DNA from: Spirochaetales bacterium
Lineage (GTDB): Bacteria > Spirochaetota > Spirochaetia > JAFGXN01
Direction of reading: 5' to 3'
DNA: 39,197 nucleotides
Assembly: GCA_016936615.1 (NCBI GenBank)
Contig: JAFGXN010000033.1
Location: 1 to 39,197, forward strand
Shown here: positions 6,028 to 36,881 of the stretch, in pieces
Layout: every line of letters starts with the position of its first letter
How positions within the stretch are numbered: the first letter of the stretch is position 1
Translations under genes and position numbers: made by a program
Notes under the pieces: model-generated
Seen by the model: the letters and a program-made list of their open reading frames with translations, nothing else
Told to the model about the DNA's origin: nothing
Databases searched by the model: none

Positions 6028-7314
6028 TTAATTTCTCTCTATGGCACTTTTAAAGGCATCTGCAATATCATCAATTAGCATTCGCGACTCAGGCTTAGCG
6101 CCTTCCACATCATCTCCTCCGATACTATCCATAAATCCGTGTGTCTGACCATTATATCTGATAAATCCTGTCTTAACACCAGAATCTGCGAGCCGATTTG
6201 CATACAACACATTCGAATAGATTAAAGGATCAAATTCACCACAAACAATAAGAGTTTCAGGCATGCCAGCGAGAGATTCAGCTAATAATGGTGACATATA
6301 CGGATTTTTGCAATTTTCAGGATCTCCCAAAATCCATAGATCACGACGAATCTTCGAACTATACATCCTGTGAACCATTCCCACGAGCAATTTACGATGA
6401 AAAAGCTGAGATGATTTTTTTAATTTAAAAAATGAGGTCTTCGCAAAATAATCTTTAGTAAAATTCTTCGACTCCATCGAACCAATAACAACAGCTGGAT
6501 AAATCAACCCTTGAAAAGAGATTTTTGGTCCCTGTTGATCTCGAGCCATCATAGCAACTGCAGTAGAGAGATGCCCCCCTGCACTATCCCCAACAGTTCC
6601 TATTATCTTGCTATCACCACCATACTTGCTAGCATTGGCTTCTGCCCAGATTAGAGCAGCATATGAATCCTCAAAAAAAACAGGAAAAGGATATTCTGGA
6701 CCCATACGATATTCGACAGAGATAACTAATGCATTTGCAGCTTCAGCCAGATAACGTGCAGGCTTATCAACGTTAGCAATAGATCCACTAGTCCAGCCTC
6801 CGCCGTGATAAAACATTATAACAGGAAGATTGTCTCCTTTTGGTCGATAGATGCGAATAGGAATAGTATCTGAACTCTCTTCTGTGTATAAAAAGGCTTT
6901 CTTCTCTGCAGAAAGACTCGCATAGCTATCCTTCCTAATTGCATACCACTGATTGTTCTCTTTTTTCACTGGAATAATTAAATCTATTTCCTCTATCTCT
7001 GTAGTTGTAATATCAGTAGCATTTTTAAAGCCAACCCCCATGCGACTATCAATTACCATCTCAAGCTCATTTGCTGGCTTCGGCATAGATGACATCTGTT
7101 TCAGAAATTTGTTTATACCAGTTACGATTCGCTGATCAATCACGCCACCAGGATTATTATTTATACCTTGTTCTTCCCTGTACTCTACTCCACTATTCAG
7201 ACCAATTGGATTAGCACCGCTAGAAGAGTCTTCAGAAACACAACCACAAATTATCAATAGAAAAAGAGCAATTAAAGTTGTAATTCCTATTGATTTTAAA
7301 AAACTTAATTTCAT
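6028..7314 (-). CDS. Lipoprotein esterase/lipase, hormone-sensitive-lipase (family IV) type
   Basis: 428 residues with an AGGAG ribosome-binding site. The signal peptide ends in IICGC, so Cys25 should be lipidated and the enzyme anchored in the periplasm or at the surface. Residues 26-150 form a linker and cap-like region. The alpha/beta-hydrolase domain then shows HGGGW (170-174, oxyanion hole), GDSAGG (242-247, nucleophile Ser244), CGEFDPL with Asp362 and GQTHGF with His392, so the full catalytic triad is present. Family members hydrolyse short- and medium-chain acyl esters or carboxylesters. The gene is alone. A -10 box (TATAAT on the minus strand, 7360-7355) lies about 40 bases upstream of the start, and the terminator at 5959-5999 ends it. 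The natural substrate is unknown. Confidence 0.9.
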   Translation of the reverse strand: MKLSFLKSIGITTLIALFLLIICGCVSEDSSSGANPIGLNSGVEYREEQGINNNPGGVIDQRIVTGINKFLKQMSSMPKPANELEMVIDSRMGVGFKNATDITTTEIEEIDLIIPVKKENNQWYAIRKDSYASLSAEKKAFLYTEESSDTIPIRIYRPKGDNLPVIMFYHGGGWTSGSIANVDKPARYLAEAANALVISVEYRMGPEYPFPVFFEDSYAALIWAEANASKYGGDSKIIGTVGDSAGGHLSTAVAMMARDQQGPKISFQGLIYPAVVIGSMESKNFTKDYFAKTSFFKLKKSSQLFHRKLLVGMVHRMYSSKIRRDLWILGDPENCKNPYMSPLLAESLAGMPETLIVCGEFDPLIYSNVLYANRLADSGVKTGFIRYNGQTHGFMDSIGGDDVEGAKPESRMLIDDIADAFKSAIERN

Positions 7315-9542: not shown

Positions 9543-9723
9543 ATACAACTCTCTTCTCATCTGTGTTTTTCAAGCGTATCAGGCAGTGCAAACCTCTGCC
9601 TCCCTTTGCTCATTTTTAAAAAAAATAAAAAAAAGTATCTATTTTTCGAAAAAAACATTTATTTTTTTTCAAATTCATCTTAATCTAGAATATGAATTTA
9701 AATTGATTTTTAATGGAGTTTAT
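9543..9723 (+). other. Long untranslated leader of the acyltransferase gene
   Basis: About 180 bases between the predicted transcription start and the ATG. It contains a hairpin, AGGCAG and CTGCCT with a 9-base loop near 9582-9602, followed some 10 bases later by TTTTT, and then long A and T runs including ATTTTTCGAAAAA. The leader is open in the frame of the gene, but its translation (very Lys/Phe-rich, no family match) looks accidental. It could hold an attenuator, though no known riboswitch class is recognisable. Confidence 0.35.
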
Positions 9724-10644
9724 ATGATACTAAAATACAGACCAGACGGAACCTACATCAAACAGAAAGGCTTTTTCAGGCTTATGCCTTACATTATGCC
9801 TACACGAAGCGAATCAACCATCTTCTTTGAGCAAGAGATTGATATTACAAACAGCCTAGCCCTTATCGAAAGGCTTAATCAAGAATCTAACCACAAGATA
9901 ACTTTTTTCCACGTATATATGGCTTCTTGCATCAGAACAATTGTTAATCGCCCAAAACTTAACAGATTTGTAAACAATTATAGGTATTTTCAACGTAATA
10001 ATATCTCTATGAATTTCGTTGCAAAGAAAGAACTAACTGATGAAGCTGAAGAGATAAACGTTACAATGAAATTTTCACCATATGACACCCTCCTCGAAGT
10101 CTCAGAGAAGATCCACAATGAGGTCTACAAGGCTAAATCACCAAAAGGCAATGTCAACCAGAGAGATGTGGATTTATTATCAAAGATTCCCCACCCTATA
10201 CTAAAGTTCACAATGGGGTTACTTAAATTCTGCAATAAATACAATATAATACCTAAAGCAATGGTAGAAAACCTACCATTCTTCACAACTGCATTTATCG
10301 CAAATATTGGATCTATCGGAATTGATGCCCCTTTTCATCACAACTTTGAGCTTGGAACAATTGGACTTTTCATAGCAATTGGAAAAATAAGAGACAAAGA
10401 GGTAAAGCTAGCTGATGGAAGTTACCAAAATAGAAAGGTTGTAACTGTCAACTATACTCACGATGATCGCGTTGTCGATGGAGTATACTGTGCTAAAGCC
10501 TTAAAGATGATAAAAGATGATATACAGAACCCTGAGAAACTTCTAGAAAAAATTGAATTAACAGATAAACAACTAGAATATTTGAAGCTAAAAGATTTTC
10601 CACCAAAATCAAAATCTAAAAAGAAGAAATCGGAGAAAAAATGA
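9724..10644 (+). CDS. E2-like acyltransferase (2-oxoacid dehydrogenase acyltransferase / CAT fold), atypical active site
   Basis: 306 residues from ATG 9724, which has GGAG with 5 bases of spacing; the open frame extends to 9535 but has no such site. The protein matches the catalytic domain of dihydrolipoamide acyltransferases and chloramphenicol acetyltransferase: ITFFHVYMASCIRTIVNRPKLNRF in the N-terminal half, FTTAFIANIGSIGIDAPFHHNFELGTIGLFIAIGKI in the core, then VNYTHDDRVVDGVYCAKAL. It has no lipoyl or peripheral-subunit-binding domain, so it is not a standard complex subunit. The canonical HxxxDG motif is altered: Asp248 occupies the His position (DRVVDG) and a His sits two residues earlier (His246). 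The C-terminus is Lys-rich. Its stop overlaps the start of the acyl-CoA ligase by 4 bases, so the two are translationally coupled and probably act on one acyl chain. Confidence 0.8.
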   Translation: MILKYRPDGTYIKQKGFFRLMPYIMPTRSESTIFFEQEIDITNSLALIERLNQESNHKITFFHVYMASCIRTIVNRPKLNRFVNNYRYFQRNNISMNFVAKKELTDEAEEINVTMKFSPYDTLLEVSEKIHNEVYKAKSPKGNVNQRDVDLLSKIPHPILKFTMGLLKFCNKYNIIPKAMVENLPFFTTAFIANIGSIGIDAPFHHNFELGTIGLFIAIGKIRDKEVKLADGSYQNRKVVTVNYTHDDRVVDGVYCAKALKMIKDDIQNPEKLLEKIELTDKQLEYLKLKDFPPKSKSKKKKSEKK

Positions 10645-12449
10645 AGTCTAAGCTAAGCAAAAAGATGCCGTGGTTGAAATTCTATGGAGATACTCCTGCC
10701 CACCTAGATTATAAAGAGTCTAGCATGTGTGAATGGGTTGAAGAGACAGCTAATAGATTCCCGACACTAAATGCAATCGAATATTTTGGAAAATCATTTT
10801 CATATTCATTTTTAATTAAAGAGATTAACAAATGCGCTAGTGCTCTAATAGGCCTTGGTATAAAGAAAGGGGAAAAAGTTTCAATCTGCCTACCAAATAT
10901 TCCTCAAGCTGTAATTATGTTCTATGCACTTAACAAAATTGGTGCAGTTTCATGCATGATACATCCTCTTTCAGGCGCCCAAGAGATTGAAGAATATCTC
11001 GAAATGACTGAGAGCAAGGGAATCATTGTCTTAGACCTTCTCTTTGAAAAAGTGAGAAGCAATCTAAAACGCTCAAATATCAAGCATATTTTCATCTGCT
11101 CACTCGATGACTACATGAATAATGTAAAAGGTTCTGTTGTAAAGCTGAAAGTCCGCAAGAAGATGCCAAAGATTCCATTTGAGAACAAGAAAATTGTCAG
11201 ATGGAAAAACATACAAGGTCTAGCATCAAAAGAGGTTCAAACTGTCAAGATGACCACGACCGACACTGCGACAATCCTCTTCAGTGGAGGAACAACTGGT
11301 AAATCTAAAGGGATTATGCTCTCGAATTTAAACTTTAATGCACTATCTGAACAGGTTTCAGTTCAATTGCCAAAGGGAAAAGAGCTAGCACCTGGAGACA
11401 GTGTCTTAGCGATTCTGCCAATCTTCCACGGCTTCGGGCTGGCTGTCTGCGTACATGGCTTTCTAACACATGCAGGAAAGGTCATACTCATACCAAGATT
11501 TGATGCTGAGTTAATGATTAAGCGAATGAAAAAAGATTGTCCAGCTGTTATTGCTGGCGTACCTACTCTCTTTGAGGCCTTAATCCGCAACAAGAAGATT
11601 CTCAAAGCTGATCTCTCCAATCTGCGTGGAGTCTTTGGCGGAGGCGACAAGGTTCCAGCCTCTATAAAATCTGAAGTAGATAAAATTTTGAAGAAGTGTG
11701 GAAGTACCACAAATCTGCGTGAAGGTTATGGACTTACCGAAACTGTGACGGTCTGCACTCTTATGCCAGAGAATACCTACAAGCAAGGTTCAATCGGTAT
11801 TCCGATATCTGACATGTATGCGAAGATTGTCGAAGTTGGAACTACTAACGAATTAAACCCTAACTGTGAAGGAGAAATCTGCATATCTGGACCTACAGTA
11901 ATGCTTGGCTACCTGAATGAAGAAAAAGAGACAAAGAGTATTTTAAAAATTCACGATGATGGGCTTACCTGGGTTCATACTGGTGATATTGGCTACATGG
12001 ATAAAGATGGATTTATCTTTTTCAAACTAAGGCAAAAGCGAATGATTAAGGTATCTGGAATTAGTGTATACCCGACACAGACTGAAGAACTACTTTACTC
12101 GCATCCAGATGTTGAATCTGCATGTTGTATTGGAATTCCTGACACCTACAAGATGAACATAATGAAAGCCTTTATCGTACTCAAGGATAAACAAAAGGCA
12201 AGCGATGAGATGAAATCTGAAATTATCACATATCTTCGCCAGCGTATCAACAACTGGAGTGTTCCAAAGGTTATTGAATTCAGAGACGATCTGCCAAAGA
12301 CCAAGGTAGGTAAAATCGACTTTACACGGCTTGAGAAAGAGGAGATAGAGAGTATGTTACAACTTGAGGATCATAAGCTAACTCTAACATCAGAAAAGAT
12401 TGCAGATAGTGTTCAAGAGATAAAATTCAGAGAATCTCACCAGGAATAA
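10641..12449 (+). CDS. Acyl-CoA synthetase (AMP-forming), FadD-like
   Basis: 602 residues of the ANL superfamily. Motifs in order are the phosphate loop LFSGGTTGKSKG (213-224), IFHGFGL (261-267), GYGLTE (362-367), HTGDIGYMDKDG (446-457), the hinge region KLRQKRMIKVSGISVYP (462-478) and the C-terminal catalytic lysine in PKTKVGKID (Lys558). All catalytic elements are intact. The enzyme should activate a carboxylic acid, probably a fatty acid, to its CoA thioester via an acyl-adenylate. It is cytoplasmic. It overlaps the E2-like acyltransferase by ATGA, which suggests that the acyl-CoA (or acyl-AMP) is handed to that protein. Chain length cannot be told from sequence. It is followed after 60 bases by bioA, but a separate promoter there argues against one operon. 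Confidence 0.9.
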   Translation: MKSKLSKKMPWLKFYGDTPAHLDYKESSMCEWVEETANRFPTLNAIEYFGKSFSYSFLIKEINKCASALIGLGIKKGEKVSICLPNIPQAVIMFYALNKIGAVSCMIHPLSGAQEIEEYLEMTESKGIIVLDLLFEKVRSNLKRSNIKHIFICSLDDYMNNVKGSVVKLKVRKKMPKIPFENKKIVRWKNIQGLASKEVQTVKMTTTDTATILFSGGTTGKSKGIMLSNLNFNALSEQVSVQLPKGKELAPGDSVLAILPIFHGFGLAVCVHGFLTHAGKVILIPRFDAELMIKRMKKDCPAVIAGVPTLFEALIRNKKILKADLSNLRGVFGGGDKVPASIKSEVDKILKKCGSTTNLREGYGLTETVTVCTLMPENTYKQGSIGIPISDMYAKIVEVGTTNELNPNCEGEICISGPTVMLGYLNEEKETKSILKIHDDGLTWVHTGDIGYMDKDGFIFFKLRQKRMIKVSGISVYPTQTEELLYSHPDVESACCIGIPDTYKMNIMKAFIVLKDKQKASDEMKSEIITYLRQRINNWSVPKVIEFRDDLPKTKVGKIDFTRLEKEEIESMLQLEDHKLTLTSEKIADSVQEIKFRESHQE

Positions 12450-12509: not shown

Positions 12510-13796
12510 ATGAATGATTTATCTGACTTTGACTTAAAACATATATGGCACCCCTACACCTCGATGACTCAACCGCTTCGATGTGTAACTGTTAAATCTG
12601 CTTCAGGCTCAAGGCTTGAACTCGACGATGGCAGATCTATTGTCGACGGAATGTCTTCGTGGTGGTGCATGGTTCACGGCTACAACAACCCCCGCCTCAA
12701 TCAAGCAATCACCGACCAACTTAAATCTATGGCTCACGTGATGTTCGGAGGAATAACACACGAGCCAGCAATCAAGCTCTGCAAGAAATTAATCGAGATA
12801 ACCCCGCCCTCTTTACAACACTGTTTCCTCTGCGACTCAGGCTCAGTCTCTGTCGAGGCTGCGATGAAGATGGCGATCCAATATCAGTATGCCAGGGGCA
12901 AAGGGAAAAAGAACAAGTTCCTGACATTTCGCAATGGCTACCACGGCGATACATTCAACGCCATGAGTGTCTGCGACCCTGTTACCGGGATGCATCAAAT
13001 TTTTTCCCATACACTTCCTAAAAACTACTTTGTCTCCCGCCCTGAATGCGGGTTTGCCAGCCAGTGGAGTAAGCACTACATCGAGGAATTTGCACGAACA
13101 ATCAAGCGCCACCACAGGAAGATATGCGCTGTCATACTTGAGCCAATTGTGCAGGGTGCTGGCGGAATGAACTTCTACCACCCTGAATATCTGCGACAGA
13201 TCCGGGCTCTATGCGACAAATATGATCTGCTCTTAATTGCTGATGAGATTGCGACAGGCTTTGGCCGTACTGGCAAATTATTTGCCTGTGAGTGGGCAGG
13301 AATCGAACCAGATATAATGTGTGTCGGAAAGGCTCTTACAGGCGGCTACATGACTGGTGCTGCAGTACTGACAAGCTCTAAGGTAGCACGGGGGATCTCC
13401 GCTGACGGTGGAGTCTTTATGCACGGCCCGACCTTCATGGGCAATCCGCTAATGTGTGCTGTTGCACTTGCAAGCATCCAATTGCTCGAAGAAAATAATT
13501 GGCAGCAACAGGTCGCAGCTATCGAAGAGCAACTCAGACGAGAACTTAGTTCTGCTGCCGAGCTTGAATATGTACAAGAGGTTCGTGTCTTCGGTGCAAT
13601 TGGTGTGATTGAACTAAAAGATCAAGTTGATATGCAGACGATACAACCGCTATTTGTCGAGAACGGCATCTGGATCCGCCCATTTGGCAAGCTAGTCTAC
13701 ATCATGCCACCATTTGTTATCTCTACTGAGGAGCTAGATTTTCTGTGCAAGCAACTATTGACAACACTGAATGAGTACTACAAACAAGGAGAGTAA
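12510..13796 (+). CDS. bioA: Adenosylmethionine-8-amino-7-oxononanoate aminotransferase
   Basis: 428 residues, the length of E. coli BioA. BioA makes 7,8-diaminopelargonate from KAPA using S-adenosylmethionine as amino donor, the third-last step of biotin synthesis. The N-terminal signature HIWHPYTSMTQP, SSWWCMVHGYNNP (Trp51-Trp52 at the substrate pocket), DSGSVSVEAAMKMAIQY (PLP phosphate loop), GYHGDT, ADEIATGFGRTG with Asp245, the PLP lysine Lys274 in VGKALTGG, and the carboxylate-binding Arg390 region (IWIRPFGKLVYIMPPF) are all present. It is directly followed by bioD with one base between them. bioF and bioB are not in the window. Base composition is visibly richer in G+C than the neighbours, which may mean a different origin. 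Confidence 0.97.
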   Translation: MNDLSDFDLKHIWHPYTSMTQPLRCVTVKSASGSRLELDDGRSIVDGMSSWWCMVHGYNNPRLNQAITDQLKSMAHVMFGGITHEPAIKLCKKLIEITPPSLQHCFLCDSGSVSVEAAMKMAIQYQYARGKGKKNKFLTFRNGYHGDTFNAMSVCDPVTGMHQIFSHTLPKNYFVSRPECGFASQWSKHYIEEFARTIKRHHRKICAVILEPIVQGAGGMNFYHPEYLRQIRALCDKYDLLLIADEIATGFGRTGKLFACEWAGIEPDIMCVGKALTGGYMTGAAVLTSSKVARGISADGGVFMHGPTFMGNPLMCAVALASIQLLEENNWQQQVAAIEEQLRRELSSAAELEYVQEVRVFGAIGVIELKDQVDMQTIQPLFVENGIWIRPFGKLVYIMPPFVISTEELDFLCKQLLTTLNEYYKQGE

Positions 13797-13797
13797 A

Positions 13798-14466
13798 ATG
13801 GGGAAAAAATTTTTTATAACTGGAACTGATACTGACATTGGCAAGAGCTACGCAACAGGGCTTATGCTTAAATTTTTACATGAGAAAAAGATTACCGCAA
13901 TCACACAAAAGCCAATTCAGACTGGCGATAGCGGATTTAGCGAAGATATTCAGACCCACTACGATATTGCGGGGCTCTCACTTCCGCCCGATACTCTCTG
14001 GAAACTCCAGAATCCATACATCTTCTCACTTCCAGCCTCGCCCCACCTAAGCAGTCGCATCGAAGGGGTGGAGATTGACACTGAGAGATGCCTTGAAGCA
14101 GCAGAGCAACTTGCAGCTACCCACCAGGTAGTTCTAATCGAAGGCGCAGGCGGACTCATGGTACCGATGAACCAGACCACTCTGACCTGCGATTTTATCC
14201 AGCGCCACAACCTACCGACAATATTAGTCACCTCGCCTAAGCTAGGAAGCATCAACCACACGCTAATGAGTCTTTTTCTTATAAAAAAATTGAAATTAGA
14301 TCTTAAAGCTCTAATCTACAACAAGAGTGTAGACTCTGACCCTGAGATAACAAAAGACTCCCTGAACTATTTCAGAGAGTATCTTTCTAATAACTTTAAG
14401 GATGTCGCAGTTATCGAAATTGAAAAAAACCAGGACTCCGCAGATTTTGGTTTTCTTATAGAATAG
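13798..14466 (+). CDS. bioD: Dethiobiotin synthetase
   Basis: 222 residues from ATG 13798, which follows AGGAGAG and lies one base after the bioA stop. The longer frame from 13771 would overlap bioA and has no ribosome-binding site. BioD closes the ureido ring of dethiobiotin from diaminopelargonate, CO2 and ATP. The P-loop GTDTDIGKS (9-17), catalytic Lys38 in QKPIQTG, the acidic EGAGGLMVP motif (115-123), and TILVTSPKLGSINHT (141-155) show an intact enzyme. The C-terminal purine-recognition region is shorter and less typical. It is cotranscribed with bioA. The gene ends 3 bases before the convergent lipoprotein gene, leaving no room for a separate terminator. Confidence 0.95.
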   Translation: MGKKFFITGTDTDIGKSYATGLMLKFLHEKKITAITQKPIQTGDSGFSEDIQTHYDIAGLSLPPDTLWKLQNPYIFSLPASPHLSSRIEGVEIDTERCLEAAEQLAATHQVVLIEGAGGLMVPMNQTTLTCDFIQRHNLPTILVTSPKLGSINHTLMSLFLIKKLKLDLKALIYNKSVDSDPEITKDSLNYFREYLSNNFKDVAVIEIEKNQDSADFGFLIE

Positions 14467-28309: not shown

Positions 28310-29760
28310 TTTATGCTCACCCCCAATCCCGCAAAACTAGTTATCACAAGGTCTATACGATTATTTGGATAAAAAAGTGGTCTAACCCCAACACCAAAAT
28401 TAAAAAAAACTTTTTTCTTGGTTCTAATTATCATATCTGCCCCAAAATTAAAATACGGAACAGCAGTCTGATAGCCTGTATAGTCGTCAAGAAATGGAGT
28501 ATCACCCAATTTCATATTTAAGATACAAACCCCAAAACCAGCCTTAAAAGAAAAATCCAGAGGAATATCAAGTTGAGTCTTATAAAAAAGGTTAGCACCA
28601 ATCATTCCAAAAAGAAAAGGATTATATGTTGCAGTTTCTTCACCATAGATAGTATCATTTAAAAAGAATGAGAATAGAAAATCAAGCTGCACTCCTAAAT
28701 CTTTAACAAAAGGCTTATCATGAAAGACCTTGTTGCCAAATCCAAAATCAGCTGTCATACCAAATCCAGTTACTGAATGAAAAAACTTATCGCCACGAGC
28801 AAGCCCAGTATCACCCTCAGGTGCTGTAACTCGCTTATCTAATCGCATATTAGCAAAAACATAGTTAAATGAAATTTCAAAGATATTGCTAATTACATAT
28901 GAGTTCACAGTAAAGGCTTTAGCTAGTACAGACTCAAGCCCAGAAGGATTTATAACAACCAGATCATATACACCAGAATTAGCAAACCTAAGATTAAAAT
29001 CAACAGAAAGATTCAGCTCACTTACCTTTTTTGTATAATCAGCTCTAATGGTGTAGAACTCATTTCTGAGTAGTACCTGAGCACCATCTTTAAAATTCTT
29101 GCCAAGGATGCTTACGCCACGGTAGGTCTCAGAAATATAGCCGCTATTCTGAGATAGCGACTCTACCTCCGGTTGCAAAGCCTTTTCTAAAACAAAGATT
29201 CCGCGGCTAATTGAAAATAGTCCAGAAGGATCCTCAACAAGCAGAGAGTAACTTTTTTCATAATCGAATTCCCCAGATGTATCAAAGGATATCTGAATAT
29301 CACCATTATCTAACCTAGTCCACTTTGCCTCGATAATCCTAGAATCACTCTCATCTGCAAGAAAAATCTTAGATTCTTCCTGCATATTATTGATAACAGC
29401 TTTAAACTTAAAATCTCCAATACCAGTATAAATTTTGTTTGCCGATACTGATTTTATAATCGGCTTCAAAGCTACTTTTACAGTTAAATTTTGCCAAGGA
29501 GTCTCTGCAGCCTTTTTCTGAAATTTGTTCAGAACAATTACCTTAAACTGATAGCTACCTGGAAAGAGTGTTAAAATTATAAAATTCTTCTCAACTTTTT
29601 CCTCTACAATAGTAATACCATCTTTCTGCAAGACAAAGATATAGGCTGCAGCACCTTCGACTGGATCCCAATCAATCTGCCTAGTAAAATCAAGGCTTTG
29701 TGAAAAGCCAACAGCAGAGAGACAAATAAAGATCCAGACAAGTACTATTCTACTGTGCAT
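28306..29760 (-). CDS. Exported FN3-like / IPT-like protein with C-terminal beta-barrel (paralogue A)
   Basis: 484 residues, with GGAG 7 bases upstream. A signal peptide (cut near Ser20-Gln21) is followed by the FN3-like unit QIDWDPVEGAAAYIFVLQK ... LFPGSYQFKVIVLNKFQKKAAETPW, Ig-like or IPT-like modules (YSLLVEDPSGL, ILGKNFKDGAQVLLRN, SGVYDLVVINPSGLES), and a C-terminal region of about 190 residues that looks like an eight- to twelve-strand barrel (FEISFNYVFANM, GMTADFGFGNK, GMIGANLFYKTQLD, FNFGVGVRPLFY). It ends VSIK rather than in an aromatic residue. It is homologous over its whole length to the next gene but clearly diverged. It overlaps the FecR gene by 11 bases and the second paralogue by 4, so all three should be made together. 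Confidence 0.75.
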   Translation of the reverse strand: MHSRIVLVWIFICLSAVGFSQSLDFTRQIDWDPVEGAAAYIFVLQKDGITIVEEKVEKNFIILTLFPGSYQFKVIVLNKFQKKAAETPWQNLTVKVALKPIIKSVSANKIYTGIGDFKFKAVINNMQEESKIFLADESDSRIIEAKWTRLDNGDIQISFDTSGEFDYEKSYSLLVEDPSGLFSISRGIFVLEKALQPEVESLSQNSGYISETYRGVSILGKNFKDGAQVLLRNEFYTIRADYTKKVSELNLSVDFNLRFANSGVYDLVVINPSGLESVLAKAFTVNSYVISNIFEISFNYVFANMRLDKRVTAPEGDTGLARGDKFFHSVTGFGMTADFGFGNKVFHDKPFVKDLGVQLDFLFSFFLNDTIYGEETATYNPFLFGMIGANLFYKTQLDIPLDFSFKAGFGVCILNMKLGDTPFLDDYTGYQTAVPYFNFGADMIIRTKKKVFFNFGVGVRPLFYPNNRIDLVITSFAGLGVSIK

Positions 29761-32700
29761 AAATTGTCTCCGGCGATGTTATTTCAGGTGCTATAATCTG
29801 ATTTTCCAGGAATAGAGTGAATTTGACACGCATAGGCTCCCCAACAATCAGCAAATCCTTAACGCCAGGATCCTGAAAAGCAGTTACCTCTAAGTAGAAC
29901 TCACTAACATCAAGCAATTCTAACTTCGTAAATGAGTATCTAGTATCACGGATATTATCCTCTTGAAAAATTATACTCTTACCATCAGCAGCAAAAATTC
30001 TGATCCGATAATATTCAGCACCAACAACCCTGCGCCACTGAAAATTCAGCAGATTGAGCGTATCCACAGCAATTCTCTGTTCAGCCTTCGGAAATACTGG
30101 CTCTGCAGCAAGCAACTTTGGCAAATCCCCGACAACTAGAGCCCTAACTTCGGAGACCACAAAGCTCATCTTCTTATCACTTATACCTTTTACTCGCCAA
30201 AAATATCTTCCAGGCTGAATATTTTCTAATTTATAAGAGTTACTACTTGATCTGTAGATTGCAGCAATCTCGTTGAATTCGGAATCTTTTGCAATCTCCA
30301 ACCAGTAATAATCAATTCCATTTATAGGTTGCCAAGAAAATAACAATCCTGCCTTGTAAATATCAAGCAAGCCAGTAGTAATTTGGCTACGAGGACCTTG
30401 AAGAAGTAAAGGTTCAAAGGTTGTACCTGTAGCTTCCACCTCTTTCTCAACAATCTTCTCGACAGGTACTTCAACAATCTTCTCAACCTCAACTATTTTC
30501 TCAACCTCAACAATCTTCTCGACTGGAACCTCTACGATCTTTTCAACTTCGACAATCTTCTCGACCGGAACCTCTACGATTTTCTCAACTTCAACTATCG
30601 TCTCAGAATTAGTAACCTCTCGCTTTGCAACAGAGAAACTAACATTCTCAGACTGAGAACTAACTAGTCGCCCATCAGGATATCTCTTCTCAGCAATAAT
30701 TTGAAGACGGTAACCACCCTCAGCAAGATTCAACCCAGGCTTAAAGATATAAAAGTTATCTTTCGTTGTCTCAGCAAGGACTATCACTCCATCACTCTTA
30801 GTCAAGACAACTTTATAACTCTCAGCAGCAGGATCAGCTGTCCAATTTACCTTGTAAGAGGACAACATATAATCGTAGACAACCGAATTCGGTAGTGGTG
30901 AAAAAATTTCAGGTTTTTTCAAAAGTGAAACTGCATAAAAATCCGAAGTCTTGCTGCGTTGATAGACATATCCATCCTGACTAACAAACTCAACATACCA
31001 ATAATATCGTCCTGAATCAGGTATGAAAAAGTCAATATCCTTACTTTTGGTTGTCAGAGCTGCTACAGGTTTGGTCAAAGAAGAATCACTGAACAGGCTT
31101 ACACGAAATAGCCCAGAATAACTAGAATCCCACTTCAGGTTAACATTTCCGGATGAGACAAACTCGACAATTCCACCCTGCTTTGGCAGACTAGGAGTAA
31201 GCGAACCACTCGGTGCAGTTACAATAAATGAGAAAGGCAGAGAGGTCACAACAAGATTGTTCGAAGAATCAAGTGCACCAACCTTCCAGCTATAACTTCC
31301 AGGCTCTAATCTCCTCGGAAAGGTTATAGAATTATCCAAAGTTCTAATACTCATCACAGGATTAGTAAAATTATTATCTTTTCCTAGAATAAATAGATAA
31401 GCTGAAGCATTTGCTGCAACCTGCCACTTAAATTCAATTTGCTGATCTATCTCCAATACTGAAATTCTCTGATTTGCACGTGGAGAGGTCAGCTCAGGTC
31501 GTGAAACTTCGATTTTATCTTGAGAGATTGTAAACGAAGCCACAGAAGAATCAGGTAGTGCACGATTCTTTGAGTCAAATGCGCGAACCCGATAATAGTA
31601 CTTTGCAGGTGTCAGCCCTTTTACATTGGCACTCTTTCCACTTGAAAAAACAGTCCTCTCTATAATCTTAAAATCAGGATCAGTTGAAATATCTATATAA
31701 AAGTTTGAAACAACTGCAGGTTGCTCCCAAGAGAAGGTTAATCCAGTATCTTTTATGCTAATCTCACTAAAAACAGTATTATTCTCTGGCAACTTTAGAA
31801 TACTAGGAGTGTAACGAACTATGTTTGAAATTGTAAATTGCTGGGTTGTTGCAGGGCTCTGCTTCAAAATTTTGTTATTTGCATCGCTGATAACTGCTGT
31901 TAGCCTAGCAGAATAAACTCCACGAGAAGTGAATTGCGAGGCGGGAATCTCAAAACTTGTCGAATCAATATTATTTTTTACAAAAACCTCAGTTCCAGAT
32001 TGGTTCAAAATAGATAAATTATACCGTGTAGCATCAAGAACACTTGACCACCGCACTAGTAAGGTCTCTCCACTCACAAGCTCTACAGAACTACCTTGCT
32101 GCGGATCTAACACAACAGGGCTCTCAAGTGGAACAGAGACAACTAACCTTCGTGCATCGCTCTCGAATTTTACAGACCCTTTTTCATATATGACCTTCCA
32201 GAAATAGACTCCAGAATTTGGAATAATAACTGTCTTATTCAGATCTGAAACTAAGGAGTCATAATATGGCTGAGAATCAGGAGATTTAGCAAAAACCTGA
32301 ATCCTAAAGTTACTCTTATCAAGATTGCTAGCCCATCTAAAGTTTACAGGTGAAAACTTCTCAATTTCAAGATTTTCATCTACCTTAGGATAGACTAGAC
32401 TGATATTCCCTTCGATTTTCTTTATCTCAAAGCTGTTAATAATCTTATTTGAGATAAGGTTATTTTCAAAATCAATCCCATCAACTGTCCAAAAATATGT
32501 TCCAGGATTTGAAAATCCAGTAAGCAAAAAACTACTACTACTCAATCTCTTTTCAGAGATAATAGTCCTAAAATCTCGACTATCTGAAATTTTCAATATA
32601 TACTCTTTAATCTCTCGGTCAGGCGACCAATTAAATCTTATTCCAGATTGAATATCAAGGGTAGAAAAGCCATTGTTATCAGGATAGATTAATTTCGGAG

Positions 32701-33961
32701 CCCTGATCTGCTGCTTAATTGCTAGTGAAAAGCTTCCAACATCGCTACTACCCTTGCTCTCAAGACCAAGAATTGGATAGACAGGTGTAACTCTCCAGAA
32801 CAACTTCCCAACCTTGTTCTTAAAATTCTTCGAGCTATTAAGATCAAAATTCAGATATGCACCTCTAACATTATCAAACTTCTCGACATTTCCAGAGAAA
32901 TTTTCATTATCTGAGACTTCAACAAGATATGAATCAGCATAAAATGACTGTCTCCATGAAAATCTAACCAATGGAGGGGTATTTCTATATTCAAAAAGCA
33001 AATTTGATGTTGGAGAAATAAGAGTAACCTTATCCTCCTGCAAAATTGAGACTACTCGTGGAATACTATATTCGATTAAATCATCCTTCTGAGTCTTGAT
33101 ACGCCAGAACCAGTTACCAGCCTCGAGTCGAAGCCCAATACTATCACGACCCTTCGCATCGAACTCACGCGAATCAGAAAAGTCCCGTGATGCTGATATC
33201 TCTAGCACGGTTGAACTAGGCGCCTCTTCTATCTTCCATTTAAAGAGAAGCTCTTGTGATTTAGAAAAAGTTACAATATACTGCCTGTCAGCAGGTAAAA
33301 GTGGCATTGCCTGAATTTTCGCCTTTTTCAAATCTAAGGCAGCGAAATCAACCTCAGATCCCTTCTTACCAGCCTCAATATTTATCGCTTGATTAGCCCC
33401 TATAGATTGTTGGGTTCCGCCTATTGCTAATTTCGCATCTCCCTCAGCAACAGAGACACTAACATCTCCACTCTCACTACGTCCTACATTAACCGAAGCT
33501 GAAGAGAACTCTACAACTCTGTCGCCAGAGACAACCCGAAGTGAACCTTGATCCTCATCTTCGCCCTCGCTTGAAACTCTGTTAGCAGCAATCAACCCCG
33601 AGACCAGCTCGACACTCTTCTCTTTAGCCAGCCAGTCTAACACAAGGTAGGTATTCTCTTCAAGATTGATCTTAGTGCCGTCTAGCATCTCAATTGTAGC
33701 ACTAACTCCACTCCCGGTTCTAATTGAATCGAGGTTATAGATAGGCGCCTTACCGTCGATGGTCTCCCAAATATTGATACTCGCATACTTTCTTCGAATT
33801 GAGTCATTTGAATATACAATCGAACCAATAATCTGCCCATCAACATTCTCAACAGTTGCATTAAGCTGACGATACAACATATAACTAGAAGAGGCTATTA
33901 TGGCAACAAATATTGAACCAAGAATAAAATCCTTTATATTTTGACTATTCAATAATTTCAT
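29750..33961 (-). CDS. Giant membrane-anchored FecR-domain protein with about eleven FN3-like repeats
   Basis: 1,403 residues from ATG 33961 (GGAAG, 6 bases of spacing); the ATG six codons upstream has no clear site. The gene starts within the cyclase gene (17-base overlap). A cytoplasmic stub and one transmembrane segment (about 11-30) are followed by a FecR domain (about 75-200: IRTGSGVSATIEMLDGTKIN, SVSVAEGDAKLAI, SIGANQAINIE). Then come about eleven units of 90-100 residues with the pattern P-x5-FxW-x7-Y-x-(L/I)-x-(I/V)-(S)-x(D) ... YFWRV, which resemble fibronectin-III or carbohydrate-binding modules. Between units 9 and 10 is a charged linker of repeated VEKIVEVP (about 1119-1175). In iron signalling FecR is a periplasmic anti-sigma regulator; here there is no sigma factor or TonB receptor, so the domain probably has a structural or sensing role. 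The protein is long enough to reach far across the periplasm. Confidence 0.85.
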   Translation of the reverse strand: MKLLNSQNIKDFILGSIFVAIIASSSYMLYRQLNATVENVDGQIIGSIVYSNDSIRRKYASINIWETIDGKAPIYNLDSIRTGSGVSATIEMLDGTKINLEENTYLVLDWLAKEKSVELVSGLIAANRVSSEGEDEDQGSLRVVSGDRVVEFSSASVNVGRSESGDVSVSVAEGDAKLAIGGTQQSIGANQAINIEAGKKGSEVDFAALDLKKAKIQAMPLLPADRQYIVTFSKSQELLFKWKIEEAPSSTVLEISASRDFSDSREFDAKGRDSIGLRLEAGNWFWRIKTQKDDLIEYSIPRVVSILQEDKVTLISPTSNLLFEYRNTPPLVRFSWRQSFYADSYLVEVSDNENFSGNVEKFDNVRGAYLNFDLNSSKNFKNKVGKLFWRVTPVYPILGLESKGSSDVGSFSLAIKQQIRAPKLIYPDNNGFSTLDIQSGIRFNWSPDREIKEYILKISDSRDFRTIISEKRLSSSSFLLTGFSNPGTYFWTVDGIDFENNLISNKIINSFEIKKIEGNISLVYPKVDENLEIEKFSPVNFRWASNLDKSNFRIQVFAKSPDSQPYYDSLVSDLNKTVIIPNSGVYFWKVIYEKGSVKFESDARRLVVSVPLESPVVLDPQQGSSVELVSGETLLVRWSSVLDATRYNLSILNQSGTEVFVKNNIDSTSFEIPASQFTSRGVYSARLTAVISDANNKILKQSPATTQQFTISNIVRYTPSILKLPENNTVFSEISIKDTGLTFSWEQPAVVSNFYIDISTDPDFKIIERTVFSSGKSANVKGLTPAKYYYRVRAFDSKNRALPDSSVASFTISQDKIEVSRPELTSPRANQRISVLEIDQQIEFKWQVAANASAYLFILGKDNNFTNPVMSIRTLDNSITFPRRLEPGSYSWKVGALDSSNNLVVTSLPFSFIVTAPSGSLTPSLPKQGGIVEFVSSGNVNLKWDSSYSGLFRVSLFSDSSLTKPVAALTTKSKDIDFFIPDSGRYYWYVEFVSQDGYVYQRSKTSDFYAVSLLKKPEIFSPLPNSVVYDYMLSSYKVNWTADPAAESYKVVLTKSDGVIVLAETTKDNFYIFKPGLNLAEGGYRLQIIAEKRYPDGRLVSSQSENVSFSVAKREVTNSETIVEVEKIVEVPVEKIVEVEKIVEVPVEKIVEVEKIVEVEKIVEVPVEKIVEKEVEATGTTFEPLLLQGPRSQITTGLLDIYKAGLLFSWQPINGIDYYWLEIAKDSEFNEIAAIYRSSSNSYKLENIQPGRYFWRVKGISDKKMSFVVSEVRALVVGDLPKLLAAEPVFPKAEQRIAVDTLNLLNFQWRRVVGAEYYRIRIFAADGKSIIFQEDNIRDTRYSFTKLELLDVSEFYLEVTAFQDPGVKDLLIVGEPMRVKFTLFLENQIIAPEITSPETIYAQ
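30435..30605 (-). repeat. In-frame tandem repeat coding for a VEKIVEVP linker
   Basis: A set of short in-frame repeats encodes VEKIVEVPVEKIVE-type sequence. Two adjacent 42-base units (30510-30551 and 30552-30593) are nearly identical, differing by a few synonymous changes, and the rest is degenerate. Length changes in multiples of 42 bases would keep the frame and lengthen or shorten the linker. The encoded alternating charged/hydrophobic stretch is probably an extended rod or coiled segment between FN3-like units. Confidence 0.85.
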
Positions 33962-36881
33962 ACTTTTCTTCCGATTCATCCAGATTTAAATCATTTATAT
34001 TATCGAATTTACCTTCGATACCAACTAAGGCTCTTAATTCAGATAGAGATTTCGGCGCATCAGGATCATCAAGTCGTCCAAGCACAGCATATATCTGTTG
34101 AGGCTCTGTCTTACCTTTTACCTTAATCTTATTCATAGGAACCAACCTGAAGGTATCTTTGACCTCATCTGCTGTAGCCTGAGAGATTAATATATCAGTT
34201 CCCATTGGCTTATTTAGGGCTTCAATTCTTGAAGCAAGATTCACAGCATCGCCTATAACTGTATACTCCATCTTCTCAGAAGAACCAATCTGCCCAGCTA
34301 GGACATTACCAGTGTTTATTCCACAACCAATCTTAATAATCGGCTTCTTATCACCACCACGATTCTCATTAAATTCCAACAAGGCCTGTCTCATCATCAA
34401 CACACCATTAACAGCATTCTCAGCATCATTGCCGCTAGAGATTGGAGTACCCCAAACCGCCATAATTGCATCACCAATATACTTATCTACAACACCCTTT
34501 GATTGGTTGACACATGCAACCATCCTTGTCATATAATCATTTAAAAATTCCACAACCTCATCTGGTGCAAGCTTCTCGGAAATAGCAGTAAAAGACCTAA
34601 TGTCTGAGAAGAAGATAGAGGCCTTCTTTATCTCGCCTCCAAGCTTGATTTCCCCCTTCGAAGCAAGATCTGCAATATTCTTATTAACAAATTTACCAAA
34701 AGCACTCTTAATCCTCTCTCTTTCTTTAAGACCTTGACCCATCTCGATAAATGACTCAGTCAAGACACCAACCTCATCGTGACTTCGAGCCCTCAACTCG
34801 ACATCATAATTACCATCCTGTATCTGTTTCGAAGCAAAAACTAATGCTCGAAGAGGATCTGAAATTGAACGAGAAAATAAGAGAACTATCAGACCAACAA
34901 CACCAACAGTAAACAAAACAATCAATACAAATATCCAAATTGCCAAGTCTAAGAAGGCTAAGGCCTTATCTCTCTCAAACTCTGTAATTACTGCTAGCCT
35001 TCCAAAATTTATTTTATTATAGCTGCCAATATACTTAGTCATGACTTCAAGAGGTTCTTCACCCTCTTCACCCTCAAAGACAACAAGCCGTTCATACTCT
35101 TCCTGTGAATAAGTTGCTCCCTGACCCTGACTTCCGATAAAAGAGTTAACAATAAATCTATCTTTATAGTTTTTATTAAGAATAAGCTGCTCAACATCTG
35201 GATGAACAATAATCTCACCCTTGTCATTAACAATATATCTCTCGGAATATGATTTTTTACCTGTTTGAATTGTCTTCACAAAGATATTCGAGATATCGAC
35301 AAAGACAACTAGAGAAGTCTTCTTATTAGCAACAATATAGGTAGGAGATGCAAAACCAATAACTGGTTTGCCAAGATGTGATGATACGTTAAAGACCGAA
35401 ACAGATCCATTTGCAGCATCCTCAATCTCCACTTGTCTAACTGTAAGAATATTTCTAACATTCTCCTCTGAGACACCAAACTGACCTAACATCTGCCTAT
35501 TAAAAAATTCATAATCTGTATCAGGAATAGCCACATAGACAACGCTTCCATTTTTTCCAAAATAATTTTCAACATACTCGCTAAGGCGACCATCAATAAT
35601 CTTATTACTTCCGATTATCAGGTTCTCTGCATTTCCCCGAATAGTCTCAAGCTGGTCCTCGACCTTACTCGCTAGGACACTGCTAATACCCTGGTTTGAA
35701 TCCTCTATCGTCATCATAATATTATCTCTGAAAAAGATAGTCGCAATTACTCCAATCGCAGAAAGAGACGAGATAATCATAATAGTAAAAAAGAGAATTA
35801 ACTTAGAACCGATAGAAAATTTAACTTTTTTCCCAGCTAACTGAACCTTTCTAATCTCATGCCTAGACTTCTTCTTAGTAGAATCAATAAATCGATCAAC
35901 TTCAGTCATTACTGTATTCTTGACAACCTCAGAGACCTCTTCTTTTACCATCTTGACAACAGTCTCCTGAATCTCCTCACGAACTGCTACCTTTACACTA
36001 TTTTTTAAAGATTTCTTAAACTCTTCCATCTTTGAATCTGTAAGCCCTACGCCTCCTGACTGACTAGACGCAGCAGATTGAACAGCAGGAGTCTTCACAA
36101 TCTCAGCTAACTCTGCCTTAGGCTTATAAAGCTCTTTCAATAATTTTCCTGAAATACCCTTATCCTTCAAATAATCAAGACTAGGTCTATCAGTCTTTAA
36201 AAGAAGATAATATGGCAGACCAGGATTATCCCCAAGTAGATCTTTATTCTCTACCTCAAGTGATCCATGCAGTAAAAGAACATCCTCTGCCACTAATTTA
36301 TCAATCTCAGTAAATAACCAGTCGTATCGATTCTCAAATTCAAAAAAATCAATGATTATAATAGAAAGAAACTCATTCTTAGCGCATTTATTCAATATAT
36401 TTGATGGAATATTCACCCCAATCTGCTGATTTTGATCCTTTGAAAACTTCAATTTCCGAATCTGTGGTCGAAATATAAACTCATTTCTATTCTCAGTAAA
36501 ATACTGCAACAACTCGTCTACAGAGATATCAGTCTTCAACGACTCGACATTCTTATCAGAGGCAAACCACATACGAGCCAGCATAATCTCAATCTTCTGA
36601 ATCAGCAATCCAAGCATTCCTCCAAGCTCTTCAGAGATAAAAAGCGAAGATTTCATCAGCTCATCAATAAGAGGATGACCAAATGAAGCTAAATTTGCAA
36701 TATCTAATAGATCACAAGCAGATGAAAAATATAAAATACGGTTAAAATCCTTCTTAATTGATTTAAACTCATACTCTGAGATCTTTCTACCTGAAGATTT
36801 TACAAAAACCTTCAGATTATTCAAAGAATCTCTAATTCTATCAACATAACTATCTACAATCAAAACTGTTTTATCTTCCAT
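33945..36881 (-). CDS. Transmembrane class III adenylate cyclase with large N-terminal cytoplasmic region, cache sensor and HAMP
   Basis: 978 residues. Residues 1-255 form an unrecognised, probably helical-then-mixed cytoplasmic domain. Residues about 281-335 form a long amphipathic, Lys/Glu/Val-rich helix that suggests oligomerisation. The remaining parts are transmembrane segment 1 (about 358-384), a periplasmic double-cache-like sensor (385-640), transmembrane segment 2 (about 645-670), HAMP (671-723) and the cyclase domain (about 750-935). The metal-binding Asp760 (FFSDIRSF) and Asp804 (KYIGDAIM), the purine-specifying Lys800 and Thr874 (EYTVIGD), Asn881 and Arg885 (VNLASR) are intact, the pattern of class IIIb adenylate cyclases. 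It should make cAMP on a periplasmic signal. The ATG has AGGAG at a long spacing. Its stop overlaps the FecR-protein start, so the two are coupled. Confidence 0.93.
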   Translation of the reverse strand: MEDKTVLIVDSYVDRIRDSLNNLKVFVKSSGRKISEYEFKSIKKDFNRILYFSSACDLLDIANLASFGHPLIDELMKSSLFISEELGGMLGLLIQKIEIMLARMWFASDKNVESLKTDISVDELLQYFTENRNEFIFRPQIRKLKFSKDQNQQIGVNIPSNILNKCAKNEFLSIIIIDFFEFENRYDWLFTEIDKLVAEDVLLLHGSLEVENKDLLGDNPGLPYYLLLKTDRPSLDYLKDKGISGKLLKELYKPKAELAEIVKTPAVQSAASSQSGGVGLTDSKMEEFKKSLKNSVKVAVREEIQETVVKMVKEEVSEVVKNTVMTEVDRFIDSTKKKSRHEIRKVQLAGKKVKFSIGSKLILFFTIMIISSLSAIGVIATIFFRDNIMMTIEDSNQGISSVLASKVEDQLETIRGNAENLIIGSNKIIDGRLSEYVENYFGKNGSVVYVAIPDTDYEFFNRQMLGQFGVSEENVRNILTVRQVEIEDAANGSVSVFNVSSHLGKPVIGFASPTYIVANKKTSLVVFVDISNIFVKTIQTGKKSYSERYIVNDKGEIIVHPDVEQLILNKNYKDRFIVNSFIGSQGQGATYSQEEYERLVVFEGEEGEEPLEVMTKYIGSYNKINFGRLAVITEFERDKALAFLDLAIWIFVLIVLFTVGVVGLIVLLFSRSISDPLRALVFASKQIQDGNYDVELRARSHDEVGVLTESFIEMGQGLKERERIKSAFGKFVNKNIADLASKGEIKLGGEIKKASIFFSDIRSFTAISEKLAPDEVVEFLNDYMTRMVACVNQSKGVVDKYIGDAIMAVWGTPISSGNDAENAVNGVLMMRQALLEFNENRGGDKKPIIKIGCGINTGNVLAGQIGSSEKMEYTVIGDAVNLASRIEALNKPMGTDILISQATADEVKDTFRLVPMNKIKVKGKTEPQQIYAVLGRLDDPDAPKSLSELRALVGIEGKFDNINDLNLDESEEKYEIIE

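Follow-up and report, generated by a model that had tools for sequence, protein, structure and literature searches.

A lipoyl-free E2-like protein family with an acidic residue at the catalytic-histidine position, and its recurrent pairing with an acyl-CoA ligase

We analyzed a contig of 39,197 nucleotides (JAFGXN010000033.1, hereafter the window) from a Spirochaetales bacterium, in which a stand-alone E2-like protein (P0001) is encoded just upstream of an AMP-forming acyl-CoA ligase (P0002). P0001 belongs to a family spanning bacteria and Asgard archaea, where an acidic residue has replaced the catalytic His of the HxxxDG motif and where pairing with the same type of ligase is recurrent. The family is an altered variant within the known E2/CAT fold family. 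The reading that we favor, with a probability of about 0.5, is a two-step acylation module: the ligase would produce acyl-CoA, from which the E2-like protein would acylate a lipid or glycolipid, and a His-His pair (HH) would take over the function of HxxxDG.

The gene pair

The features that matter for the analysis are the following.

9724..10644, + strand: stand-alone E2/CAT-fold acyltransferase-like protein of 306 aa (P0001); translation, PF00198 match, AlphaFold pLDDT of 93, Foldseek matches to E2 cores, GGAG at 9715-9718
10336..10341, + strand: codons of the His205-His206 loop, candidate relocated catalytic His; kept in 129 of 129 distinct members and exclusive with the motif His
10456..10482, + strand: codons of the altered motif T245-H-D-D-R-V-V-D-G253 (canonical xxDHRxxDG), with D248 at the catalytic-His column; translation and alignments
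10641..12449, + strand: AMP-forming acyl-CoA ligase of 602 aa, probably specific for fatty acids (P0002); PF00501 at 256 bits, PF13193 at 69 bits, FadD-like best matches, intact motifs, ATGA overlap with the upstream gene

Five bases before each of the two starts there is a GGAG (at 10632-10635 for the ligase). A longer reading frame for the acyltransferase, from 9535, is unsupported: we preferred 9724 because the homologues begin at MxxxRxDG, as does the protein started there. PF00198 is the only Pfam match of P0001 (53.4 bits, for a cut-off of 23), and the scan found neither lipoyl nor peripheral-subunit-binding domains. The first-pass annotation had described an E2-like protein free of lipoyl domains that overlaps a complete AMP-forming ligase by ATGA, which agrees with these results, the ligase having both of its domains. 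Its wording "fused by overlap" has to be corrected, as these are two separate overlapping genes.

The ligase has intact SGGTTG, GYGLTE, and PKTKVGKID motifs. Like the FadD-type long-chain-fatty-acid--CoA ligases of the ANL superfamily, it has full AMP-binding and C-terminal domains, the P-loop, GYGLTE, and the catalytic Lys motif. Unlike assigned FadD types, it falls below every NCBIfam equivalog cut-off shown; the best matches are long-chain ligases, far under the cut-off (377 of the 705 bits needed). Its putative substrate is a fatty acid, probably long-chain. Another ligase, in locus L187 (G000:C152, 52-2640), shares a single frame with a carrier-protein-like stretch and an alpha-oxoamine-synthase (BioF/KBL-like) domain, whose product may be an aminoketone or a sphingoid-like lipid.

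Distribution of the family

The family is present in 129 of the 395 sampled Spirochaetota-class genomes (60 relatives by sequence search, 395 genomes by profile search). In a scan of named genomes we found 80 loci, mostly in metagenome bins, from Spirochaetota, Myxococcota, Bacillota, Promethearchaeota (Lokiarchaeota, Harpocratesius), Atribacterota, Thermotogota, Aminicenantes, Cloacimonadota, and others. In genome contigs, a single-protein query gave no matches and the loci came from an alignment query. A search of plasmid sequences gave no family match, and our literature searches found no description of the family. Unless stated otherwise, the conservation and neighborhood counts given below rest on 129 distinct members or loci. 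One locus (L072, 3072-5345) encodes the family domain in a frame of 757 aa with some 470 upstream residues that have no Pfam match, possibly a fusion.

An E2 core probably outside the dehydrogenase complexes

The AlphaFold2 monomer of P0001, computed with 52 sequences, has a mean pLDDT of 93 and a pTM of 0.90. When it was compared with the PDB using Foldseek, the top 50 matches were all E2-type cores or complexes containing them (E ~1e-13, target TM up to 0.81). By this model, P0001 has the E2 catalytic-core fold. It shares with the 2-oxoacid dehydrogenase E2 cores (PF00198; E2p, E2o, E2b) the fold, the overall alignment, the D-x-R frame, and the xxDG end of the motif. However, it lacks the lipoyl and subunit-binding domains and has a long additional helical segment at ~144-183, and in its family Asp or Glu stands for the catalytic His and HH replaces the IIN of the IINPP loop.

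Since the Pfam match is to the E2 dehydrogenase domain only, proteins of this family are easily taken for dehydrogenase subunits. P0001 is very probably no such subunit: a search of the genome (~94% complete) found no lipoyl-bearing PF00198 protein, which makes a role in a ketoacid dehydrogenase very unlikely, and we rejected this assignment.

Two other types of proteins are relevant for comparison. CAT and the PapA/condensation-type acyltransferases, of the same superfamily, are stand-alone enzymes that transfer acyl groups from acyl-CoA to small molecules or lipids, which is the mode proposed here for P0001. They retain HxxxDG, whereas P0001 has DxxxDG and the motif His is never present in its family. 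A sequence search of solved structures gave no match to this type at E <= 1. PapA enzymes work together with FadD ligases and MmpL transporters; our literature searches found no paper uniting PapA, FadD, MmpL, and HXXXDG. The other type is human PDHX (E3-binding protein, or protein X), which like P0001 combines the fold of an E2 core with the lack of a catalytic His. Protein X, however, bears a lipoyl domain and assembles with the PDH E2, neither of which applies in the present genome. The matches of P0001 among solved structures include E3BP (6h60).

A second lipoyl-free E2-like type was found in locus L001 (G000:C105, 1021-1965). This protein of 314 aa keeps the His, has DHRALDFAD for DHRxxDG, and lacks the HH loop.

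Loss of the motif histidine

Residues 245-253 of P0001 read T245-H246-D247-D248-R249-V250-V251-D252-G253. The aligned residues of canonical E2 are D-H-R (as in TYDHRIIDG or LSCDHRVIDG), with D248 in the column of the catalytic His and H246 two residues earlier, as the first-pass annotation had seen. The genome has a second copy of the family, 50% identical to P0001 and without a ligase, that reads THDDKVADG. Across the 129 members, column 248 is Glu in 97, Asp in 31, and a gap in one, never His. Of the 128 members whose motif can be read, all have D247 and 127 have R249; column 252 is Asp or Glu. K101 and S197 are each found in 128 of the 129, and the column of the oxyanion Ser (193) is Ala in 85. 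A sequencing error at D248 is ruled out by the paralogue and by the presence of Asp or Glu in 128/128 readable members; no homologue in the family has a normal HxxxDG. The loss of the catalytic His is thus a hallmark of the whole family, neither a private oddity nor a sequence error.

The suggestion that H246, the shifted His, might serve as a base did not survive the family-wide alignment, which shows conservation of the acid and not of H246. Column 246 is mostly Leu, Phe, Ile, or Val, and has His in only two of the 129 members. As these are the two paralogues of the present genome, H246 is no conserved base.

The active site of E. coli E2p lies between subunits: one side carries S551, the other H603' and D607', and D602' and R604' form a conserved salt bridge (PMC8421416). 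In the present family, the residues equivalent to this salt bridge are retained (D247, at the end of strand 234-247 in the model, and R249) and the His is lost.

The His-His loop

A better catalytic candidate than H246, by sequence conservation, is a pair of His overlooked in the earlier annotation. H205-H206 is present in all 129 distinct members. Among the E2-type proteins compared, the 140 with the HH loop (a count that includes one protein with the loop HHLT, assigned by eye) all lack the motif His, and the 11 with the motif His all lack HH. This exclusivity goes back to one or a few changes in evolution and should not be counted as 140 independent events. The pattern used in the named-genome scan contained HH, which biases its conservation among L035-L114; as a check against this bias, HH is also kept in the loci found by profile and by sequence search.

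In a profile-profile alignment, H206 matches the Asn that is invariant in the canonical IINPP loop. In the AlphaFold2 model, HH is part of the loop that connects helix 195-198 to strand 215-228. Because this loop comes after the strand equivalent to that of S551, we expect it on the wall of the channel opposite to the motif.

Genomic neighborhood

A ligase of the same family lies directly downstream, on the same strand, in 17 of the 129 distinct loci, in several cases overlapping, and it is never upstream. These 17 loci belong to at least four phyla (spirochaetes, Atribacterota, Thermotogota, and a Propionibacteriaceae bin). Chance would give roughly half a case per 129 loci, a rough estimate that assumes one gene per kilobase and the 11 AMP-binding matches of the 3.26-Mb genome. 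Mapped on the tree, the pairing changes 9-10 times, with at least 4 changes forced by well-supported branches. The distances between paired ligases correlate with those between their acyltransferases (r 0.81, permutation p 1e-4), a value to which shared descent contributes. The stand-alone module with an acyl-CoA ligase partner that was first proposed from the present locus is thus supported by its recurrence in other genomes.

A glycosyltransferase resembling diglucosyl-diacylglycerol synthase (PF06925/PF04101, PRK13609) is directly upstream in 7 loci, two of which have the full order glycosyltransferase-E2-ligase; a search of the present genome found no PF06925 glycosyltransferase. In L100, L104, L111, L146, and L147, of a Treponema/Breznakiellaceae-type clade, the lipid glycosyltransferase is directly upstream and there is no ligase. 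An MMPL/HAE3-type transporter precedes the E2-like gene in one spirochaete, and an Abhydrolase_3 esterase in one. Neither ligase nor glycosyltransferase adjoins the gene in 107 of the 129 loci. Other recurrent neighbors (leucyl-tRNA synthetase in Clostridia, a DEAD helicase, and a spore-photoproduct-lyase-like protein) look like vertical synteny and were set aside as functional links.

A possible acylation module and its alternatives

In the module that we favor, the ligase would convert a fatty acid, probably long-chain, to acyl-CoA using ATP and CoA. We expect the E2-like protein to be a trimer of the CAT/E2 type, in which the active site sits in the channel between subunits; it would then pass the acyl group to an acceptor and release CoA. 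The most likely acceptor would be a lipid or glycolipid hydroxyl. An acid takes the place of the His within the retained D-x-R frame, and the HH loop, expected on another wall of the channel, would provide the imidazole. We more tentatively propose a relocation of the catalytic imidazole, from the HxxxDG of one subunit to the HH loop expected across the same intersubunit channel, in a ligase-fed lipid or glycolipid acyltransferase that would be a widespread, undescribed branch of E2/CAT.

Published work on E. coli E2o bears on the loss of the His. A 54-fold loss results from either His375Ala or Asp374Ala, His375Trp is ~60% active, and the pH profiles are unchanged; its authors argue that His375 is no acid-base catalyst and that both residues act through hydrogen bonding (PMC5986005). 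The loss in CAT His195Ala is far larger than that in E2o His375Ala (PMC5986005). E2o tolerates the loss of its His, and acyl transfer without a motif His is therefore possible; a hydroxyl acceptor probably needs another base. A lipid or glycolipid is the probable acceptor given the links to glycosyltransferases and MMPL and the analogy with PapA/FadD/MmpL, although in the present genome, which lacks the PF06925 glycosyltransferase, the acceptor is a guess. Against the module we count the loci without either partner, the frequent Ala at column 193, and the few events behind the exclusivity of HH.

The first-pass annotation had also considered an acyl-CoA-binding pseudoenzyme, which stands as the main rival: a dead E2 core would bind acyl-CoA and hold or regulate the ligase, or hand acyl-CoA on, much as protein X/E3BP plays a structural role in PDH complexes. 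While the family-wide absence of the catalytic His, the Ala in most oxyanion Ser columns, and the E3BP among the fold matches are in line with it, position 248 is held as Glu or Asp instead of drifting, and D247, R249, K101, S197, and HH are near-invariant across bacteria and archaea. Besides, most members have no adjoining ligase to scaffold. These observations weaken the claim, and we find it doubtful.

A further alternative is that the acid at 248 is itself the base or hydrogen-bond partner at the old position of the His, with HH serving only in structure or acceptor binding. The presence of Glu or Asp in every readable motif and the hydrogen-bonding role of His375 and Asp374 in E2o (PMC5986005) fit this idea, but Asp and Glu differ in reach, and two further members, beyond the set of 129, have Lys at 248 whereas HH is never lost. 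We regard it as improbable.

Finally, the ligase could make pimeloyl-CoA for biotin synthesis and the E2-like protein pass the pimeloyl on, as an Aminotran_3 bioA-like protein (12510-13796, + strand) directly follows the ligase, an AAA_26 dethiobiotin-synthetase (bioD)-like protein (13771-14466, + strand) comes next, and bioB is elsewhere in the genome; yet these bioA/bioD-like genes share no cluster with the neighbors at other loci, the GC content of 12510-14466 is ~44% vs 38% around, and an assignment of the ligase to PimA would require 705.6 bits whereas it reaches 235, which leaves this unlikely explanation with hardly any weight.

The E2/CAT/condensation-domain superfamily is defined by its catalytic signature, HxxxDG. 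With no His in this motif, an acid kept in its place, and an invariant HH at another site, the present family would offer a natural test of the mobility of catalytic residues, and it bears on the published question of an acid-base role for the E2 His. If the reading of lipid acylation by the ligase-fed E2-like protein is true, these proteins are candidates for the enzymes that acylate membrane lipids in spirochaetes. Acylated glycolipids do occur in spirochaetes, among them the acylated cholesteryl galactoside of Borrelia, whose acyltransferase has yet to be identified (PMC8168883); our data give no indication of the HH family in Borrelia.

Other genes of the window

A LipP1-like Abhydrolase_3 lipase is encoded at 6028-7314 (- strand), with flagellar-type genes between it and the pair; in locus L113, a similar lipase is directly upstream of the pair. 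Further along the window, a protein of 1409 aa (29750-33979, - strand) with no Pfam match at E <= 1e-8 adjoins a protein of 978 aa (33945-36881, - strand) that has an adenylate/guanylate cyclase domain.
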